DNA of 64,000 nt from Sphingomonadales bacterium. Lineage in GTDB: Bacteria; Pseudomonadota; Alphaproteobacteria; Sphingomonadales; Sphingomonadaceae. The translations under genes and the position numbers were made by a program. Positions 51,691-61,126 of this stretch are shown here, piece after piece; within the stretch, counting starts at the first letter, position 1; the number at the start of each line of letters is the position of its first letter. The stretch covers positions 124,001 through 188,000 of the forward strand of contig JAACPW010000003.1 of the NCBI GenBank assembly GCA_009995225.1, in the 5' to 3' direction. The notes beneath the pieces are model-generated. The model searched no databases. It worked only from the letters and a program-made list of their open reading frames with translations, and was not told the origin of the DNA.

Positions 51691-52119
51691 TCAGAATACC
51701 GCCAGCGCGGCGTGCAGGATGAGCGCCATCAACATCAGCGACGACAGCGCATACAACGCAAATCGCACGATTACGCGGTTGATTGTTGCCTGAACGATGC
51801 TGTGTGCCACCCGCAGGACCACATAGGCCCAGGCGAGCATGCTGTTAAAACCATCACCCTGTCCGATGATCGCAAGCACGATCGCAACCGCATAAAACAC
51901 TGTAGGTGCTTCGTGCAAATGGTTGTAATTATCCGCTTTCCAACTGACTGTGTCGGGCAGTTTGGCTCTCAGACTTGCGCCATCGCTACCGACGAGGTTC
52001 CTGGCATCAATCCCGGCTTTGTTCATTGCCGGAATGCGCGTGGCATACATCCATACCCACATCACCATCGTCCAGGCTAACAGCGCCACCACGGGCTGAA
52101 GAATGCTGGTGCCGATCAT
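51691..52119 (-). CDS. MAPEG family membrane protein
   Basis: 142 residues with four hydrophobic segments (residues 6-26, 75-90, 95-110, 118-140) and the MAPEG pattern NYNHLHEAPTVFYAVAIVLA and LRVAHSIVQATIN. Membrane-associated glutathione/eicosanoid family; in bacteria the substrate is rarely known. It follows a paralogue by 12 bases on the same strand. Confidence 0.85.
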   Translation of the reverse strand: MIGTSILQPVVALLAWTMVMWVWMYATRIPAMNKAGIDARNLVGSDGASLRAKLPDTVSWKADNYNHLHEAPTVFYAVAIVLAIIGQGDGFNSMLAWAYVVLRVAHSIVQATINRVIVRFALYALSSLMLMALILHAALAVF

Positions 52120-52131
52120 TGTCGTGTCTCC

Positions 52132-52581
52132 TCAAGCAGGCAGAGCGGAAGGGTCGGCCAGCACGGTCGCCATCACGGCGCGCACGCCCAGAAACAGCAG
52201 CGCGAAGGTCGAGACGATGAACAGCACGAAGCGCATTGGCACCTTGTTGACGGTGGATTGCCAAATCGAATGGATGATCCGCAAGCCAACATAGGCCCAC
52301 GCCGCCAGCACGTCGCCAGCACCCGCTCCCATGATCGCCAGGATCACAACCGCTGCATAGAAGACCGTCGGTTGCTCCATAAGGTGCGCATAATTGTGCG
52401 CAGGCCAGTTGATGCGCGGTTCAACCTGACCTTCCAGATCCTGTCCGCGGCCACCGGGCCGTGCGCCAAGATCGATCCCAGCTTTCTTGAGCGCGGGCAG
52501 GCGCACGCCGGCCATCCAGAACAGCATGATGACCGACCACACCACCAGCACGGCGGCGGGCGCGAGTATTTGCGCTTGCAT
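52132..52581 (-). CDS. MAPEG family membrane protein, paralogue
   Basis: 149 residues, four hydrophobic segments, NYAHLMEQPTVFYAAVVILA and LRIIHSIWQSTVNKVPMRF. It resembles the following gene throughout, so the two arose by tandem duplication and have since diverged. ATG at 52581 has GGGGATC upstream; the frame is open further upstream but the normal start is here. Possible glutathione-dependent peroxidase or isomerase role. Confidence 0.85.
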   Translation of the reverse strand: MQAQILAPAAVLVVWSVIMLFWMAGVRLPALKKAGIDLGARPGGRGQDLEGQVEPRINWPAHNYAHLMEQPTVFYAAVVILAIMGAGAGDVLAAWAYVGLRIIHSIWQSTVNKVPMRFVLFIVSTFALLFLGVRAVMATVLADPSALPA

Positions 52582-52860
52582 TGATGATCCCCTTGAAGAG
52601 CGTGGCTCTGTGCGCAGACTGCGAGGGCGCGAAAGGATTGTCAAACGCAACCCATCATTCGCGCCGCAAACAAGAAGGCGGCACAAAGACAGGCGTTCAG
52701 CACCACCGGCTCAGATGATATCGACCATCCGCAGTCAGGGCTTGATGGTTTCGAACGCCTCAGGCGAGCACTGCAAAAGTGAGGAAGACGAGACTGAGAT
52801 CAGCCCGCGCGCGTCCACCGGTCCAGCCTTGGCGCTCATCTCAGCCGCGCGCGGGCTCAT

Positions 52861-53075
52861 CCCCAGCCGCAGCAGCCCCAGCAGCCCCAGCACCACCAGC
52901 ATCACGCCCGACAGCGCGGCGAGCGTGATCGCCGCTTCCCAGTATTCTGCGGATCCCGGCGCAGCGACCGCGCCCGCTGCGCTCGCCGTCATCAGCGAGA
53001 CCACCGCGACGGGGCCGACCGACAATGTGCGGCTCTTACCGAATACGGCATAGGCGAACAGCGGCAGGATCGAAG
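52861..53075 (-). pseudogene. SulP permease internal fragment
   Basis: The translation SILPLFAYAVFG, KSRTLSVGPVAVVSLMTA and ITLAALSGVMLVVLGLL corresponds to an internal part of a SulP permease (just after the N-terminal SILPL motif). It lacks its start, the rest of the membrane domain and the STAS domain. It is cut at about 53073 where an ArsR fragment on the other strand begins. It is closer to the classical SulP type (AVGPVAVVSLMTA) than the intact SulP at 39616, so it is not a duplicate of that gene. Confidence 0.75.
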
Positions 53076-53263
53076 TTGGCGAGATCGAGCACGTCATCGG
53101 CATCGCGCAGCTGGGACTGTCCCGGCAACTCGCCGGGCTGCGCAAGGCAGGACTGGTCGAAACTCGCAGGGACGCCAAACTGGTGTTTTACGCGATCGCC
53201 GGGGTGCAAATCGAAATGCTGCTGGACGCCATTGCAGACCTTGCGCCCAATTCCGCTGCGAGA
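53072..53263 (+). pseudogene. ArsR regulator C-terminal fragment
   Basis: In frame EVGEIEHVIGIAQLGLSRQL then RKAGLVETRRDAKLVFYAIAG: the recognition helix and wing of an ArsR family regulator. The first helices are missing and a stop (TAG, 53051) lies just upstream; no genuine C-terminal stop is found. It abuts the SulP fragment on the other strand at 53073, so both were truncated at one rearrangement point. Confidence 0.7.
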
Positions 53264-53467
53264 CGCGGCGCACCCAAACCTGCAAGCGCACCGGCAGTCC
53301 CCGGGGTCGCAAACTTTGCGCGAATGTTCCGACAGCTGATTGGCTTTGACATGTCGCGTCACAGATGCCGAAGGGCGGCAAATGACTGCGCCGATCAGGC
53401 TGCGCGCCTCACGCCAATTTTCGGCGTGTCATTCAAACACCAGCTCAAGGGATCGGTCCGGCCAGGC
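53264..53467. other. Remaining debris region, nothing recognised
   Basis: About 200 bases between the ArsR fragment and the third TonB receptor stop. Together with 52582-52860 this makes about 900 bases with no intact gene. Confidence 0.5.
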
Positions 53468-55555
53468 TTAAAAACTGACCCGCAAGCTTGCGCGGACCTG
53501 CCGCGGTTCAACCGGATGAAAATGCCGATCTTCCACTCCGCTCGCTTCGCCAGGGAGCCGGGATTCGTAGAAATAGGTGATGTCGGCATCGCGGGTGTCG
53601 AACAGGTTGAACACCTCGATACCAAGGCGCAGCGGCCCCAGATCGTAATAGCCTGCCAGATTGACCAATGTCGTTGGGTCGGAACGGACCGAGCGGTCTT
53701 CGATCAACGGCGCCCTGCCGAAATGGCGAAGGCGCGCGGTGACTGTGAGCTCGGGCACGGGGCTGACTGCGATCCCGGCGGCAATCACCTCGGGAACCGC
53801 GCCGGGAATGGCGTTGGCCCCGGCACCCGGTCCTACGAACTTGGCATCGGTGTAAGCATAGGCGACATCGATCACCACGGTGGGAATGGGGCGCCAGAAC
53901 ACGTTGGCCTCGACCCCATAGCGCCGCGATCCGTCATTCGGCTCGGTTGCACCGCCATCGCCGATGAAGACCAATTCGGAATCGAGTTCGAGCCAGAAGC
54001 CGATCAATGACGCATCGATTGTTGCCGTTTCCAGTCGTGCGCCCAGCTCTGCCCCCTCGGCCCGGACCAGCAGGGGCACCCGCTCCGCCGCATTGCCGCT
54101 CACCGGGTCAAAAGCGATAGTGGCGCCGCGCGCATCGTTGGAGTGAAAGGACTGGCCGTAATTGGCGTATAGTTCGATTCCTTTTCCGGCCTGCCATGCC
54201 AGACCGAACTTGGGGGCGAACAGATCGTCATCAGCGTTGCCCGAATTGGCAGCGAGATCGGAGCGCACGTCGACTGTCTGGTAGTCAAATCTGAGGCCGG
54301 CAAAGCCGCGCAAACGGGGTGCGATTGTGATCTGGCTATCGACGTAGAGCCCAATCCCGGTCTGGTCGATCGCATCGCGCCGCACGGTATCGACCGCGAC
54401 TGCATCGACGCTGCCGAACAGGCCGACCTCGCCAATCGCGTCGTGCCGCAGATCAGCACCAAGGTTCACGGCTAATGGTCCACGCTCAAACCGGTGCGCG
54501 ACAGCGCCACCAAGCACCCAGCGTTCGTCACGCTGCAAGAATTCGTCACCGCGTACAGGATCTTCGAGGAAATAGGTGAAGTTGGACACCAGCTCGAATT
54601 CGTATCGTGTGGCATAGGCTGAAAAGGTGGTGTCGCCGACCGCCCCGCCCACAACTGCGCCAAGGCGCGTCGTACTTCCGCCAAGGTCGTCGTCGACATT
54701 GCCGAACCTGTCGATCAGCCCGCTGGCGATGGCACGTTCGGGCACCTGATCGGTCGATGTCCACCGCGCGTCATAGGCGTTAAGCTGTAGGGAAAAGCGG
54801 CTGTTCTCACCGCCGAAGGAATACTTCACCAAACCCGAAAATCGCTTAAGATCTTCGGCAAGAACCCAAGGCCCGTCGTAAAATTGCGCATCGCCCACGA
54901 TCAGCAGATCGCCGCTACCAAGTTCGGAACTCCCGCCCGCAACGCCCCGAACAAAGCCGAACTCGCCCACCTGCACGTCGGCAAAGGGGCGCAAAGTGTC
55001 GGCGGTTGTGAAGGCGGCGGTGCCGGCTGCGCTGAAATCTCCGACATCAGCAAAATAGGGGCCTTTGCGAAAGTCGATCCGCTCAACCGCTTCGGGGATC
55101 AGAAAATTGAAATCAAGATAACCCTGCCCGTGGCCGTGCGAACGCATGTTGATGGGGACACCATCGACAAATCCCGCAAAGTCGGTGCCGTGATCGAGGT
55201 TGAAACCGCGCAGGAAAAACTGGTTGGCCTTGCCGCTGCCGGAATGCTGCGTGGCAATCAGGCCGGGGACATTTTCCAGCAACTCACCGACCCGTGAGAT
55301 GGGGATGGCGTCGAAATCTGCATAGCCGACCGTTCCTTGCGATCCCGACCGTGCAATGCCGATTTCATCCAGCGCGCGGCCGTAAACCACGATCTGCTGG
55401 GGTTCGGTTGCTGCGTCGCTTTCACGGCTCGCCGGCTCCGTTTCGATGGGAGGCACTGACTGTGCGGCCACAGTGGAAGCAAAACAGCTGGCGGCGATCC
55501 CCGCAAGCCAGATCGGCAGCGTCCGGGGCAGTGGCGACGGAGCATTTTCAGACAT
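53468..55555 (-). CDS. TonB-dependent receptor with His-rich plug loop (HupE-linked)
   Basis: 695 residues. Signal peptide (to about residue 31, TVAAQ), QQIVVYGRAL, plug with GELLENVPGLIATQHSGSGK, FFLRGFNLDHGTDFAGFVDG and MRSHGHGQGYLDFNFLIPE, and a barrel ending VRASLRVSF (C-terminal Phe). The histidine-rich plug loop (HGHGQG) marks a receptor subgroup; such loops suit metal or metal-chelate ligands but this is unproven. It is last in a run with DUF4331, TPR and HupE genes. Confidence 0.88.
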   Translation of the reverse strand: MSENAPSPLPRTLPIWLAGIAASCFASTVAAQSVPPIETEPASRESDAATEPQQIVVYGRALDEIGIARSGSQGTVGYADFDAIPISRVGELLENVPGLIATQHSGSGKANQFFLRGFNLDHGTDFAGFVDGVPINMRSHGHGQGYLDFNFLIPEAVERIDFRKGPYFADVGDFSAAGTAAFTTADTLRPFADVQVGEFGFVRGVAGGSSELGSGDLLIVGDAQFYDGPWVLAEDLKRFSGLVKYSFGGENSRFSLQLNAYDARWTSTDQVPERAIASGLIDRFGNVDDDLGGSTTRLGAVVGGAVGDTTFSAYATRYEFELVSNFTYFLEDPVRGDEFLQRDERWVLGGAVAHRFERGPLAVNLGADLRHDAIGEVGLFGSVDAVAVDTVRRDAIDQTGIGLYVDSQITIAPRLRGFAGLRFDYQTVDVRSDLAANSGNADDDLFAPKFGLAWQAGKGIELYANYGQSFHSNDARGATIAFDPVSGNAAERVPLLVRAEGAELGARLETATIDASLIGFWLELDSELVFIGDGGATEPNDGSRRYGVEANVFWRPIPTVVIDVAYAYTDAKFVGPGAGANAIPGAVPEVIAAGIAVSPVPELTVTARLRHFGRAPLIEDRSVRSDPTTLVNLAGYYDLGPLRLGIEVFNLFDTRDADITYFYESRLPGEASGVEDRHFHPVEPRQVRASLRVSF

Positions 55556-55589
55556 GAAGTATCTTCTGTAGGATGCAGGGGAGGAGGGA

Positions 55590-56849
55590 TCAGACCAGGC
55601 GGGGTCTGTCTGCGATCGTACGGCGGGCGATCACGATCACTCCGGCGGTAAGCACGCCGAAGAACACCAGTATCATGCCGGTTTCAACCACCGCCTCGAA
55701 AAGGGTGACGAAAGTCTCGGCAAGGCCAAAATAGCGATCCACCACCCAGATCGCTGCGATAACGGCGCACAACAATGCCAGCCCACTGCGCAGCCAGTGG
55801 TAGGCCCGTGTGGCAGCAATGGTGACGAGAGCCGGGACGATGGCCAGCGCAATGGCGATCTGGACCAGCTCGATCCCGAAATTGAATCCGATCAGGGTGC
55901 CGATATTGCGGGCTACCGATAAATCGGTGGAACTGAGATATCCCGCAAAGCCGAGGCCGTGAACCAGCCCAAAAAGCGTGGCAAACAAGGCCTCACGCTG
56001 CGGGAAAATCGGGCGGATCGCGTGGATCGCGGCAATCAGGACCGAAAGCGCGATCAATATTTCAACCAGCGTGCCGGGCAGGGTCAACCCGCCCAGCGAT
56101 GCCGCGAGCAGTGTGGCGCTGTGCCCCAGCGTGAAGCCCGAGATCAGGATCGCCGCTGAGCGGATGGTCGGTCTGCCCCCCCGCGCTTCGCGCCAGCGTG
56201 CGCCCCGCGCTATCAGCGGCAAGGGAAGCAACAGGGCGAGCAGGAATGCCAGATGATCGACGCCTCCCAGAATATGGCCCGCGCCCAGGCTGACCGCGTT
56301 GGCAAACGGCATCCACGGATGCGCCGCGCCGCGCTGGATCGCCAATGCTGTGCGATTTGCACGCAGGGTGCCGATGACATCGGGTTCATCGCCCAGTTTC
56401 GTCGCCGGATCGCGCCGCAGCATAACGAGCACGAAATGGTCGGGCACTGCGCCGATGACCGCGCGCCAATTCAGCGTGAAGTCACGCAGATCGGCCGGAT
56501 CTTGCGGCGTCAAGGAAAGCGTTGCGATGAGATCCTGGCTGCCATCTTGCGTGATGAATGCCAGGCGTTCCACCTGCGTCCGCCACAGCCCGCCGCCGCC
56601 GTTCGCCGCGATGGTGTCAGCAAGATAACGCTGCGCCTGTGCGTGGGCTGCGTCATCCTGTCCGACGCGGTGACCGCTGGCATAGGCATATTCCGCTGCC
56701 GGAATAACGACCTCCAGTTCGACATGGTCGGCCTGAAAATCGAGATAGGCCTCGCTGTTTGGGGCCTGATGCGCGCGCGCTGTGGCCGTCAGCGCGGTGA
56801 CAGCGATCAGCCATGCCATGACAATCCTAATCAGCCGTGTGCGAGCCAT
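55590..56849 (-). CDS. HupE/UreJ-type membrane protein with long periplasmic domain
   Basis: 419 residues. Signal or first hydrophobic segment (about 8-25), a soluble domain to about residue 185, then six membrane segments with the HupE/UreJ motifs GAGHILGGVDHLAFLLALL, FTLGHSATLL and FGLVHGLGFAGYL. HupE-family proteins are nickel/cobalt permeases in hydrogenase and urease operons; members with a long N-terminal domain have no assigned substrate. Overlaps the TPR gene by 19 bases, so one operon. Confidence 0.87.
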   Translation of the reverse strand: MARTRLIRIVMAWLIAVTALTATARAHQAPNSEAYLDFQADHVELEVVIPAAEYAYASGHRVGQDDAAHAQAQRYLADTIAANGGGGLWRTQVERLAFITQDGSQDLIATLSLTPQDPADLRDFTLNWRAVIGAVPDHFVLVMLRRDPATKLGDEPDVIGTLRANRTALAIQRGAAHPWMPFANAVSLGAGHILGGVDHLAFLLALLLPLPLIARGARWREARGGRPTIRSAAILISGFTLGHSATLLAASLGGLTLPGTLVEILIALSVLIAAIHAIRPIFPQREALFATLFGLVHGLGFAGYLSSTDLSVARNIGTLIGFNFGIELVQIAIALAIVPALVTIAATRAYHWLRSGLALLCAVIAAIWVVDRYFGLAETFVTLFEAVVETGMILVFFGVLTAGVIVIARRTIADRPRLV

Positions 56850-58162
56850 ATCAGCCTCGTTACTGGGTCATTGATCTTCGGATTGATGGACCAGGCTGTG
56901 TCGGTCGCGGCGGTCGCCGCGTCGGTTTCCCCCAGGATCGTCAGGGCCTGCGCCTTGATGGCAAACATCTGTGCGGAACGCCAACCGGATTGTTCAGCCA
57001 AGCCGATCTCCCTCAGCGCGGCACGCGGCCGGTCATTCGCAATCAGCGCCCGCGCGAGCAACAGCCGGGCTTCGCCGTAAGGGCGGGCCTTAGCGTTGAT
57101 CTGAGCCAGCCGCAAAGCCTGCGTGACTTCGCCGAACACCAATTCATGTTCGGCGGCGTGGGCTGCGAAGGCTGCGGGATATCTGCCTGCCCATGTTCTC
57201 CAGATTTCCCCGGCCTTTTTCGCCCAGATCTGGCTGCGGGCAATGTCACCTTGAACGCGCCACACCAGTGCCAGCATATCCATGGCCTCGGGCCGGGCGT
57301 GTTCTCGCGCCAGCTTTTCGAGATCCTTGATGGCGCTTTGCGTCTGGCCGTTGGCGAGCCGCCCCTCAGCGCGATAAAGCGCGGTGACCCAATGGCCGGG
57401 AAACAACGTTTCGGCGCGATCGTACCAGTCGTTCGCTGTGACATAATCACCGCGGGCGCTTGCGATCATGCCGGTTTGCAGCGCGATACCTGACAGAACC
57501 ACGGGGGTGTGCTTATCGGTTTGGGTGGCGCTGGCCAGCGTGGCGATGGCGTCATCGAACGCGCCTGAGACGCGTTGCAGGTTGGCGATGCGCAACGCCA
57601 CGCTGATATGTGAGTCGATCTGCGCTGCCTCTCGGTAGAGGCGGGCAGCCTCGTCATGATTGCCCGTGTAAAGTGCCAGATCGCCGCGCATGGCGGCCGC
57701 TTCCGACACAGTCTGAGTGTCCGGTGGGACACTGCCGCGCGATAAAATGTCGAGTTCCCGCGCCGCACCTGCCAGATCGTGCTGGGCCAGGTAAAGCTCG
57801 GCCCGCAACTCCGGTACGCCTGACGGCATCGGTGCCAGATTGCGCACTTCAGCGACCTGCGCGTCCGCCATGTCGAGATAGGCAATCTGGCCTGTCAGGC
57901 GGAACAGCGAAAGCGCCGCGGCACCTGCGCCAGCATGCGGGAGCCATTCGTCCGGTGTCCGTTTGATCCGGTCGAGCGAAAGCGCAAGGCGTTGGTTCGA
58001 CACCGCAACGAGATCACCATAGGTCGCCGGGCCGTAAGCGGGCCGTTCCATGGCGAAAGCCGGTGCAGGGTGGCTGTCGCTACGCTGCATCGCCCATTGC
58101 AAAAGCGACAGACACACAACTGCCAGCAATGAGAACAGCGGCCACCGGAGCAGTCTGGTCAT
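56831..58162 (-). CDS. TPR-repeat protein, membrane-anchored
   Basis: 443 residues. An N-terminal membrane segment (about 7-24) precedes a helical array of TPR-like repeats (for example GDLALYTGNHDEAARLYREA, GDYVTANDWYDRAE, QSAIKDLEKLARE). A periplasmic or inner-membrane-facing scaffold is likely. Placed between DUF4331 and HupE genes and overlapping the HupE gene. Specific partner unknown. Confidence 0.83.
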   Translation of the reverse strand: MTRLLRWPLFSLLAVVCLSLLQWAMQRSDSHPAPAFAMERPAYGPATYGDLVAVSNQRLALSLDRIKRTPDEWLPHAGAGAAALSLFRLTGQIAYLDMADAQVAEVRNLAPMPSGVPELRAELYLAQHDLAGAARELDILSRGSVPPDTQTVSEAAAMRGDLALYTGNHDEAARLYREAAQIDSHISVALRIANLQRVSGAFDDAIATLASATQTDKHTPVVLSGIALQTGMIASARGDYVTANDWYDRAETLFPGHWVTALYRAEGRLANGQTQSAIKDLEKLAREHARPEAMDMLALVWRVQGDIARSQIWAKKAGEIWRTWAGRYPAAFAAHAAEHELVFGEVTQALRLAQINAKARPYGEARLLLARALIANDRPRAALREIGLAEQSGWRSAQMFAIKAQALTILGETDAATAATDTAWSINPKINDPVTRLIWLAHG

Positions 58163-58186
58163 GGCGTCCTTCCTGCATTCATGTGG

Positions 58187-58221
58187 ACCGGGCAGGCCCT
58201 CTCAAAGCAGGCCTGCCCGGT
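58187..58221 (-). repeat. Perfect hairpin between DUF4331 and TPR genes
   Basis: ACCGGGCAGGCC (58187-58198) and GGCCTGCCCGGT (58210-58221) form a 12-bp stem with an 11-base loop in the 66-base gap between the two genes. No T-run follows on the minus strand, so attenuation, processing or transcript stability is more likely than full termination. Confidence 0.6.
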
Positions 58222-58228
58222 AGTGGCT

Positions 58229-58942
58229 TCAGTTGGCGCGAGCGCAGGGCGTGAGCCCGGCCCCAACCAGATCATCCGCGAGCGCGTTGGTCAGCCCCGT
58301 CAGCTGCGCGGTCAATTCCGGTACGAAGTCGCCAGCGACATCATTGGCTGGCGATACGTCGTTATAATTGTTTTTCAGGCCTGAGCCGATCAGCACGGTC
58401 GAAACCGCTGGCATCCCCATGCGATCGACGCGCGTGTAGGCGTTGGCATCATTGGTCCGGAAGGCGAAGCCTGAACCCGGTGAGGTCATGATTTGTGTGC
58501 CTTGTGCCGGCGCCAGGAACGGGAAACCCGCGGGGAACGCGACGTCATTGCGCGGCGGGTTCAACGGCAGACCAGCCAATGTCCCGGCACCGTTGCGGCT
58601 AAGATCGAGGAAAATCACCGCAAGGGTCACATCGATTACCGGATCGGCGAGCAATCGGCCATTGGGGAAGCCGGCATTGGCACCAAGGTTGAGCGTTAGC
58701 GTATCGGGTACCACTGCGCCCGCCACAGTCACGCCGCCGGTGCCGGGGATAACCTGATTGAGGCAAGGTCCCACATCGAAGCCGACCGGGCTGGGCGATG
58801 GGGAGGGTGTCGGCACCACGCCAACATCGGGGGGTTGGTTTGCGTCATCGCCGTCAAAACAGGCCGTCAACAGACCTGCGGCAGCAATCAGGGGCGCCGT
58901 TACCAAGACCCGGCGGAATGCGCTGGAATATGTGCGTGTCAT
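58229..58942 (-). CDS. DUF4331-type lipoprotein, C-terminal half
   Basis: 237 residues. Lipobox LLTAC near residue 28, then a Pro/Ser linker (VVPTPSPSPSP). The body has the DUF4331 stretches LTLNLGANAGFPNGRLLADPVIDV and RVDRMGMPAVSTVLIGSG. In single-chain DUF4331 proteins as I know them, the RMG part comes before the FPNGR part; here the order is reversed. Its ATG overlaps the stop of the previous gene (TAATG), so the two halves are translationally coupled. Confidence 0.8.
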   Translation of the reverse strand: MTRTYSSAFRRVLVTAPLIAAAGLLTACFDGDDANQPPDVGVVPTPSPSPSPVGFDVGPCLNQVIPGTGGVTVAGAVVPDTLTLNLGANAGFPNGRLLADPVIDVTLAVIFLDLSRNGAGTLAGLPLNPPRNDVAFPAGFPFLAPAQGTQIMTSPGSGFAFRTNDANAYTRVDRMGMPAVSTVLIGSGLKNNYNDVSPANDVAGDFVPELTAQLTGLTNALADDLVGAGLTPCARAN

Positions 58943-59607
58943 TACAATTGGCCTCCGAAACGGGCGGTGGTGGCCCATACGTCCACCAAATTGGCGCCAT
59001 TTTCGATCCGGCTACGTGGGATCGAGATGACAATTGCGGTCAGGTTCTGGCCGGCGAAGAAATCGCGCTGGTTGTTGAAACTCAAGGTTCCGGTGGAAAG
59101 CGTGTCGCGGAAGCCCTGAAGGTCGAAAAAGAACGGATCATCGAACAGCCCGGCCCGCACACGCACGCCATCCTTGCTGAGATCGCTCTCCACGGCCCCT
59201 TCGATGGCGCCGGTTACGCCCGGCAGGCCTCTGACCTGCACGCCGAAATTGTTGCTGCCAGCGCCTTGGCCGAAACGAATTTCGATAGGAATGTTGGGTG
59301 TCGTACGCGGCGAAGCGTTTGATACGTTGATTGTGTAAAGCACGTTGGGATCATAGACGGCCGGAAGGTTGGCAGCCTGTGGACCGGCAAAGGTCAGCAC
59401 AAGGTTGACATCGGTCGCGGTGTGCCATGCGAACACGTCGGCAATGTCGGCCGCCTTGTCCGGCGTGGCGTCGTTGGCTGGATTTGTCCGTCCGGGAGGG
59501 TCAAGGTGGTCAGCGGCGGTCAGACCGGCGCCCGCGAAGTAGAAAGCCCCCCCTGCCAGCGCCATTATGACCCCGGCTGACATGGGCAGTGCGTGTCTCA
59601 ATTTCAC
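58942..59607 (-). CDS. DUF4331 domain protein, N-terminal half
   Basis: 221 residues. An N-terminal hydrophobic segment (signal peptide or anchor) is followed by AADHLDPPGRTNPANDATPDKA in pieces, LYTINVSNASP, FFFDLQGFRDTL and LVDVWATTARF, which match the first half of DUF4331 and stop where the domain normally continues. A GTG at 59607 with AGGAG 7 bases upstream is the best start; in-frame codons further upstream lack this. Probably exported. First gene of the five-gene block that diverges from the ECF sigma factor gene. Confidence 0.82.
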   Translation of the reverse strand: MKLRHALPMSAGVIMALAGGAFYFAGAGLTAADHLDPPGRTNPANDATPDKAADIADVFAWHTATDVNLVLTFAGPQAANLPAVYDPNVLYTINVSNASPRTTPNIPIEIRFGQGAGSNNFGVQVRGLPGVTGAIEGAVESDLSKDGVRVRAGLFDDPFFFDLQGFRDTLSTGTLSFNNQRDFFAGQNLTAIVISIPRSRIENGANLVDVWATTARFGGQL

Positions 59608-59684
59608 CCGAATTCTCCTCGCGCAATGCATCAATAATACGGCTGCGCACGTTTCTGCGCCTAAGCCTTACGCCCAGGGACCGG

Positions 59685-59700
59685 GGTCGGTTTTGGTCGG
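59685..59700. promoter_or_regulatory. Tandem GGTCGG direct repeat in ECF/DUF4331 divergent promoter
   Basis: GGTCGG-TTTT-GGTCGG lies midway in the 178 bases between the divergent starts. A regulatory site is plausible but I cannot identify a matched pair of ECF promoter hexamers. Confidence 0.35.
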
Positions 59701-59784
59701 ATTGAAATATTTTTTAATAACTTGCCTTGATTGCTGCTGCCTTCATAGGTTGCAGCCGGCTGAAGCGGGAGATTGACGGCGGGC

Positions 59785-60342
59785 ATGGCCAGCGACCTAT
59801 ATAATGGTGAGCTTACTCAGATCCTTCTGGCGATGGCAGAGGGTGACAAAGAAGCAATGCATCGCCTTTACGTCCGAACGTCACGCGAGCTTTATTCACT
59901 GTGCTTCAGCTTCATTCAAAACCGGGAAGCCAGCGAAGACGTAGTGCATGAAGTCTACTTGAAAGCGTGGAATCGGGCGGCCAGTTACGACTACACCAAG
60001 GGTGCGCCAATGGCGTGGCTGACCAGAATTGCCCGTAACAGCGCAATCGACTGGATCAGAGCGCAAAAGCGTCGGCCAACGTCCGGTGATGACGAACTTA
60101 TCTTCATCGCTGACGAAAGTGAAACTGCAGAAGAAATGCTCATCCGAGTCGAACAATCGGACAATATCAGGCAGCAGGTGGACAATTTGGCATCAGCCGA
60201 TGCCAACCTTATCCGCAGCGCCTATCTACGCGGAATGACCTATTCCGAAGTGGCAAAGGAAACAGGCTTACCGCTTGGCACAGTTAAGACGCGAATCCGC
60301 AGGGGACTTCGTATCATGCGCGAAAGAATGATCCATGATTGA
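59785..60342 (+). CDS. ECF sigma factor (SigK/RpoE type)
   Basis: 185 residues. Sigma region 2 (LYSLCFSFIQNREASEDVVHE in pieces, VYLKAWNRAASYDYTKGAPM) and region 4 (RSAYLRGMTYSEVAKETGLP, GTVKTRIRRGLRIMRE). It directs RNA polymerase to a regulon, most obviously the divergent DUF4331-TPR-HupE-TonB receptor block. The next gene encodes an RskA-like anti-sigma factor that overlaps it by 8 bases. ATG at 59785 preferred over an in-frame TTG at 59773. Confidence 0.9.
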   Translation: MASDLYNGELTQILLAMAEGDKEAMHRLYVRTSRELYSLCFSFIQNREASEDVVHEVYLKAWNRAASYDYTKGAPMAWLTRIARNSAIDWIRAQKRRPTSGDDELIFIADESETAEEMLIRVEQSDNIRQQVDNLASADANLIRSAYLRGMTYSEVAKETGLPLGTVKTRIRRGLRIMRERMIHD

Positions 60343-61126
60343 CGACCCTGACACCCCGAACGATCCGGAGATGCTGGCAGCCGAATACGCGCTGGGATTG
60401 CTGGACGCCGAAGCGCACGCTGCGGCGGAAGCGCGGATCGCCACGGATCAGGATTTTTCTGCGCGTGTGGTGCGTTGGGAAGCGATCGGCCATGACTGGG
60501 CCAGCACCGCGCCTGTCGACACAGACTGGTCTGCCGATGATTTGTGGCGCCGGATGGAAGCCGGATTCCCTGTAAAGCCCGGCGCGCATGTTTTGCCCTT
60601 GCCCGCCAATGATACAGGCGCGCCGTCTAGACCGCGCCGTTCGGCGACCGGGTGGCGATTGGCCACGATGGCGGCGTCTATTGCCGCTGTGGTCTTGGCA
60701 GGTCTTTACTCTAGCGAACAGGGCCGGGTGCGGGAACTTGGCAAAAGGCTCGCCCTTGCTGAAGCGCAGACGGTAACTGCCGCGTCCGACATTCGGGTCG
60801 CGCAGGTGAGCCGGGCCGACGGTGCACCCGTGCTTACCGTGCTTTATGAGGGCGAGGGCGGACGCCTGACCGCTCGGATTGCATCGATTGTTGAGCAAAA
60901 TCTGGTACCGGAATTGTGGGTTATCGGTCCGGACGGAACGCCGCGTTCTTTGGGGCAGGGCATCAGCGGTTCGGTATTTGTCGTGGAGCTGACCGAACAG
61001 ATGCGCGCGGATATTGCCGCTGGAAGTTCGATTGCAATCTCGCTTGAAGTGGCGGCGGAAGAACCCAGTGCGCAGCCGACCGGCGATCGCATTCTGGGTG
61101 CCGCTCAACTCGCTCCGGTGACGTGA
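60335..61126 (+). CDS. RskA-like anti-sigma factor
   Basis: 263 residues. A cytoplasmic anti-sigma domain (about 1-90, AAEYALGLLDAEAHAAAEAR), one membrane segment (about 107-125) and a periplasmic RskA C-terminal domain with PELWVIGPDGTPRSLG. Overlaps the sigma gene by 8 bases. The protein should hold the sigma factor at the membrane and release it on a periplasmic signal. Followed by a strong terminator. Confidence 0.9.
   Translation: MIDDPDTPNDPEMLAAEYALGLLDAEAHAAAEARIATDQDFSARVVRWEAIGHDWASTAPVDTDWSADDLWRRMEAGFPVKPGAHVLPLPANDTGAPSRPRRSATGWRLATMAASIAAVVLAGLYSSEQGRVRELGKRLALAEAQTVTAASDIRVAQVSRADGAPVLTVLYEGEGGRLTARIASIVEQNLVPELWVIGPDGTPRSLGQGISGSVFVVELTEQMRADIAAGSSIAISLEVAAEEPSAQPTGDRILGAAQLAPVT

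Follow-up and report, generated by a model that had tools for sequence, protein, structure and literature searches.

What does an envelope gene row handle in which DUF4331, a Pfam domain of unknown function, stands beside a HupE-type permease? The question is raised by a 64,000-nucleotide stretch of a Sphingomonadales bacterium (GCA_009995225.1, contig JAACPW010000003.1, positions 124,001 to 188,000, forward strand; hereafter the window), where a reading made from the sequence alone had proposed a complete outer- to inner-membrane uptake route switched on by an extracytoplasmic function (ECF) sigma factor. The periplasmic domain of the permease has a predicted fold resembling that of a known copper-binding domain, and for this reason copper or nickel is the likely metal captured by the row. 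We give an even chance to a fuller account, in which the row captures a periplasmic transition metal, copper(II) being the most probable, passes it on to the permease and is switched on by the sigma factor. All seven genes of the sequence-only reading are in place, five on the minus strand and the sigma/anti-sigma pair diverging from them on the plus strand:

58942..59634, minus strand: DUF4331 N part, the start and middle of PF14224 (Pfam 51.3 bits, cut-off 27)
58229..58942, minus strand: DUF4331 C part, a lipoprotein with an LTAC lipobox (Pfam 56.9 bits, cut-off 27)
56831..58162, minus strand: tetratricopeptide repeat (TPR) protein with what looks like an N-terminal signal or anchor (TPR_19 44.6 bits)
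55590..56849, minus strand: HupE/UreJ_2 permease with an Ang-like periplasmic domain (HupE_UreJ_2, PF13795, 125 bits, cut-off 24.5)
56325..56771, minus strand: Ang-like domain, permease residues 27-175 (fold match on a predicted model)
53468..55555, minus strand: TonB-dependent receptor (barrel 101 bits, cut-off 27; plug 55, cut-off 23.9)
55121..55138, minus strand: HGHGQG plug loop of the receptor (sequence)
59773..60342, plus strand: ECF sigma factor, SigK-like (sigma region 2, 63 bits, cut-off 24)
60335..61126, plus strand: RskA-type anti-sigma factor (RskA_C 42.5 bits, cut-off 29.4)
59627..59655, plus strand: candidate ECF promoter TGCATCA-N16-CGTTTC facing the sigma gene (weak, single-site)

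The two DUF4331 genes touch, the ATG of the second overlapping the TAA of the first (TAATG), while the TPR and HupE genes overlap by 19 bases and 34 bases separate HupE from the TonB receptor; such small gaps and overlaps suggest a putative single transcript for the five genes. Since homologues of the DUF4331 N part, among the matches listed, are mostly 219-221 aa long, its start is probably the GTG at 59607. A literature search, with subscription journals mostly outside its reach, returned no paper on DUF4331/PF14224, none joining HupE/UreJ with a sigma factor, and none joining HupE with sigma factor, anti-sigma factor and tetratricopeptide.

Recurrence of the row

DUF4331 occurs in 19 of 197 genomes of the order, and all 19 neighbourhoods were inspected over about 7.5 kb on each side. 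A split DUF4331 pair is present at 16 of them, the window's own genome counted, always with the TPR gene (16/16), with HupE at 9, an adjoining sigma/RskA pair at 7 and the TonB receptor at 2. Two further loci of the order (L050, L051) carry a single-gene DUF4331 with TPR, HupE and sigma/RskA, and the last (L052) a divergent DUF4331 with no partner. Among 397 sampled Pseudomonadota genomes, 25 contain DUF4331 (3 already seen, 18 full-length single-gene forms and 4 weak matches), and 17 of the 18 full-length and 3 of the 4 weak loci were inspected. Single-gene loci thus number 19 (the 17 plus L050 and L051): TPR and HupE each occur at 15, the TonB receptor at 4 and sigma/RskA within the row at 13, the pair lying three genes off at L072 and L073 and uncounted there. 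A small lipoprotein-like gene follows DUF4331 at 13 of these 19 (10 by cluster, 3 by eye). No partner was seen at the four divergent loci (L052, L075-L077), of which L076 ends at a contig edge.

Over all 39 loci the tally is TPR 31, HupE 24, sigma/RskA 20 and TonB receptor 6. These neighbours are found together in further genera and classes too, so that the row is more than chance, and chance clustering can be ruled out; the co-location on which the sequence-only reading depended thus holds for DUF4331, TPR and HupE, with the ECF sigma/RskA pair joining them at about half of the loci. Compared profile to profile, TPR proteins from the two kinds of locus, split and single-gene, match over 350 columns (97.9%), which shows kinship of the repeats at least. 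A scan of genome contigs with HupE yielded no more than two weak loci.

As the constant outer step of a route, the role first proposed for it, the TonB receptor does not hold up: it stands in only 6 of the 39 stretches, and its family (E 1e-60 or better) also occurs in 14 of 92 searched genomes of the order that lack DUF4331 (0 of 12 from the same genus and 14 of 80 others, the latter not a random draw). The receptor is instead an enriched but optional partner, occurring in 16 of the 37 DUF4331 genomes searched (Fisher p 0.0012; within the order 8/19 versus 14/92, p 0.022). Its H[GA]HGQG plug loop is kept in 25 of 25 compared receptors and DHGTD in all receptor loops listed. The window receptor falls below the cut-offs of the curated NCBIfam models for siderophores (75 versus 223.5) and B12 (26.6 versus 599.7).

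At 18 receptor loci away from DUF4331, no partner occurs at more than five. One gene family of about 380-430 aa adjoins the receptor at five (L090, L091, L092, L094, L096), and near it at three (L086, L097, L098) lies a recurring gene of 126-145 aa with a larger gene after it, an arrangement that we take to resemble BlaI/BlaR pairs.

The permease and its probable metal

The permease resembles a group that was named only recently. The "anglerase" HupE/UreJ-2 permeases, typified by Ang-1 and Ang-2, share with it a signal peptide, a His directly after it, a beta-sandwich (9GCE on the model) and a C-terminal PF13795 domain (PMC12537917). In the window protein A-R-A precedes His27, a plausible signal end by the -3/-1 rule alone; the Ang beta-sandwich is present on the predicted model, and the best VIA match of the domain is copper-loaded Ang-1. 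In an alignment of the window permease with 59 hand-chosen sequences from 120 listed HupE matches, the His27 position is His in 57 of 57 ungapped rows, and the Glu53 position, where a second metal ligand may lie, is acidic in 51 of 58; the second ligand is Asn41 in Ang-1 and Asp33 in Ang-2 (PMC12537917). In the transport part His192, Asp198-His199, His243 and His297-Gly298 are invariant in all 60 aligned rows. The Ang-1-like domain, as modelled, backs the earlier call of a metal-handling permease. The anglerase neighbourhoods differ from the present row: they hold DUF4198, indigoidine-A-like proteins, PfkB kinases, metallophosphatases and DUF916, and neither "sigma" nor "TPR" occurs in the main text of that paper (PMC12537917).

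Copper is our first choice of cargo, by analogy with Ang-1, whose domain, the one that has been solved, prefers copper over nickel (PMC12537917). An uptake route for nickel or cobalt, as the HupE name would have it, we consider unlikely, although relatives in HupE/UreJ are known nickel permeases, Ang-1 itself also binds nickel (220 nM; PMC12537917) and a HupE/UreJ-like gene is the most nickel-induced in Sphingobium sp. ba1, albeit in an RND/NreB cluster (PMC5557971). Nickel enzymes were sought in 37 of the 41 DUF4331 genomes, the 4 weak ones left out. Strong urease matches in 9 genomes, all among the 21 non-split ones, and NiFe hydrogenase matches over the cut-off in 3 speak for nickel; against it, the 16 split-DUF4331 genomes hold no NiFe hydrogenase and no convincing urease (one partial match, 26.8 bits), the window's own genome matching neither. 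A search for nickel superoxide dismutase found none in the 37 genomes and is uninformative, its control being silent too. The lack of nickel enzymes lowers nickel for the split-DUF4331 clade only; together with the copper preference of Ang-1 it is why nickel or cobalt, the cargo suggested at first sight, is not favoured. The window permease also has no match, up to E 0.1, to PF04955, the hydrogenase/urease HupE/UreJ family.

From the modelled fold zinc is possible too, the Ang-like domain then being a zinc binder of the ZrgA/PA4063 type and the HupE part moving zinc. We hold this to be very unlikely, given the copper-loaded best match, the His directly after the signal region, which is an Ang feature, and the slight destabilisation of Ang-1 by zinc (PMC12537917).

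Permeases of the same kind also occur in DUF3500-HupE pairs of Deinococcus, Hymenobacter, Spirosoma, Acidisarcina and Paenibacillus (the last assigned to DUF3500 by BLAST cluster only), where DUF3500 replaces DUF4331 and TPR. A DUF3500 gene lies one or two genes before the permease in 6 of 6 non-Pseudomonadota plasmid matches (L079-L082, L122, L123), and the Hymenobacter locus adds a sigma/FecR pair, a cytochrome c peroxidase and a TonB receptor. These pairs are perhaps a parallel system with another partner.

The sigma/RskA pair and a promoter-like motif

The window sigma factor is SigK-like and scores below the cut-off of the SigK model (NF007228, 122.9 versus 226). Its arrangement recalls the SigK-RskA-mpt83 cassette, found in Gram-negatives too, in which an ECF/RskA pair adjoins an exported target that carries a sigma site. 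That cassette targets an MPT83-type lipoprotein, where the window has DUF4331-TPR-HupE, and the activating signal of SigK/RskA is reported as unknown (PMC7509140). The FecI-FecR-FecA control of metal uptake (outlined in PMC7509140) likewise sets an ECF pair near a TonB receptor and differs in its anti-sigma factor, which in the window is RskA-type. Present in so few of the stretches, the receptor is unlikely to be the general signal carrier.

The sequence TGCATCC-N16-CGTW stands upstream of many single-gene DUF4331 genes. In the form GCAYCY-N15-17-CGTW it precedes 17 of 36 DUF4331 genes (14 of 19 single-gene, 3 of 17 split or divergent; L047 left out, divergent L052 and the Croceicoccus plasmid L078 included) and 7 of 27 sigma genes, compared with 13 of the 464 other genes at these loci. 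A matrix trained on the 14 single-gene DUF4331 sites and tested on unseen sets was enriched at the sigma genes of single-gene loci (p 2.4e-4, 19 genes) and at split DUF4331 genes (p 0.0022, 17 genes), with no enrichment at the sigma genes of split loci (p 0.27, 8 genes) or at in-row genes (p 0.26, 101 genes). Enumeration of spaced 5-mers was weaker than the by-eye motif, reaching 5 of 14 loci at best versus 3 in shuffles.

A longer form of the motif has 21 sites in 12 genomes versus 13 for a reversed control. Seven precede DUF4331 and three its sigma gene; the 11 further sites, not above the control's 13, reveal no regulon beyond the row in these genomes. This form also precedes a CHRD-domain protein (L106) and an NHL-repeat protein (L104), such sites being no commoner than in the control.

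DUF4331 and the proposed route

The division of DUF4331 into an N-half and a C-half, as first read, stands as to the two genes, both above the PF14224 cut-off; the second, however, is no plain C-half, and the two do not make one chain in the order 1-421. When placed on an alignment of 19 single-gene DUF4331 proteins, the first gene spans columns 1-301, and the second matches columns 440-510 and then 317-373. Pfam coordinates give the same swap, with 361-420 before 248-301, the reverse of the single-gene order, and it recurs in 14 of 14 second-gene proteins with both segments readable (14 of 16, the Croceicoccus plasmid copy included). A frameshift artefact is ruled out, since 16 of the 19 DUF4331 genomes of the order share the two-gene form, and descent of the halves as paralogues is unsupported (N versus C profile comparison 3.9% at best). 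The start of the second gene, lipobox included, is similar to the small lipoprotein encoded on its own at single-gene loci (88%, 37 columns), from which we infer an anchor fused into the second gene, though the resemblance may be that of a shared signal region only. The predicted model of the C part was too poor for a structure search, and sequence searches of the PDB with HupE, the C part and single-gene DUF4331 turned up nothing useful. The database entry for the window's own C part has Leu where the window has Pro (FPNGRLLAD[P]VIDV).

A His is kept directly after the signal region of DUF4331 proteins, within A-S-S-H-R-E-A-P in most single-gene forms and A-A-D-H-L-D-P-P in most split N parts; for the window N part the -3/-1 rule predicts a possible mature N-terminus Ala-Asp-His. 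The rule allows a cut that leaves X-X-His in all 33 readable genes (in the other 3 of the 36 the His lies before the scanned stretch) and in 118 of 120 homologues among the matches listed. Under one uniform rule for hydrophobic N-termini, 31 of 32 DUF4331 genes fit versus 43 of 586 other genes, as do 98 of 114 homologues. DUF4331 could then be a periplasmic Cu(II)/Ni(II) carrier with an amino-terminal copper- and nickel-binding (ATCUN) X-X-His motif, handing the ion to His1 of the permease's Ang domain in a two-His relay under one ECF switch; in Erythrobacteraceae the carrier would have been divided in two, with a permuted second half that took on the lipoprotein anchor which other loci encode as a small gene of its own. 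We find this idea rather doubtful and offer it as a hypothesis, because cleavage could also fall elsewhere (leaving His1 in 17 of 18 single-gene forms and His2 in 11 of 15 N parts) and H-x-E/D may be conserved for the sake of the fold.

The copper-centred account would run as follows. RskA, as its family suggests, would release the ECF factor on an envelope signal, and the factor would read a TGCATCC-N16-CGTW-like promoter before DUF4331 and its own gene, as the motif conserved in part of the relatives suggests; the window itself offers no more than a near-match, upstream of the sigma gene. At loci that have one, the TonB receptor, with its invariant plug His loop, would bring a metal complex through the outer membrane. 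Exported DUF4331, possibly with an X-X-His start, would bind or buffer the metal, held by the lipoprotein part and TPR. The Ang-like domain starting at His27, matched by fold on a predicted model, would take the metal at its His1 site, and the HupE part, with its invariant His and Asp, would presumably pass it inward.

Several results weigh against this account. Of the 16 split loci 7 lack HupE, and in 6 of these 7 genomes HupE_UreJ_2 finds no match anywhere. On the window's DUF4331 side there is no motif match, the score of 2.6 being equalled or beaten by 64% of control genes. The sigma-side site scores 15.7, reached by 1.1% of control genes, but TGCATCM-N16-CGTW has 6 sites in the window's own genome versus 1 for the reversed pattern, so this one site is weak evidence. 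ECF control, judged by such sites, is therefore supported for the system and suggestive for the window copy: the proposed switch gains a common promoter-like motif in relatives and lacks one at the window's own DUF4331 start. The notion of a complete uptake route likewise keeps its recurring row, metal-type permease and ECF link, and gives way on the TonB receptor and HupE, neither of which is constant.

The gaps in HupE, set beside a DUF4331-TPR core constant in all split loci, would suit a module for envelope stress or surface assembly, with DUF4331 and TPR doing the work and HupE as an anchor or a dispensable, frequent add-on; SigK/RskA elsewhere controls MPT83-type lipoproteins, its signal unknown (PMC7509140). 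HupE, however, stands in the row at 15 of 19 single-gene loci, with its transport-part His and Asp invariant and its modelled metal-type domain kept, and we judge such a module quite improbable. On the copper-centred account, DUF4331, tied to an ECF/RskA pair, a promoter-like motif and a copper-type permease, acquires a testable role; the recently named anglerase permeases would gain a recurrent gene row with a likely regulator in Gram-negative bacteria, and the SigK/RskA-like pair a new target set.

Beyond the receptor gene, 52735-53178 (minus strand) encodes a 147-aa fragment of a sulfate permease of the SulP type (profile 36-105 of 380), beside which 53081-53338 (plus strand) holds a faint ArsR-like remnant (14 bits, below the cut-off of 22); both look like decayed genes. 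Two related tandem genes of one BLAST cluster follow at 51691-52119 and 52132-52584 (minus strand), the second a member of the MAPEG family.
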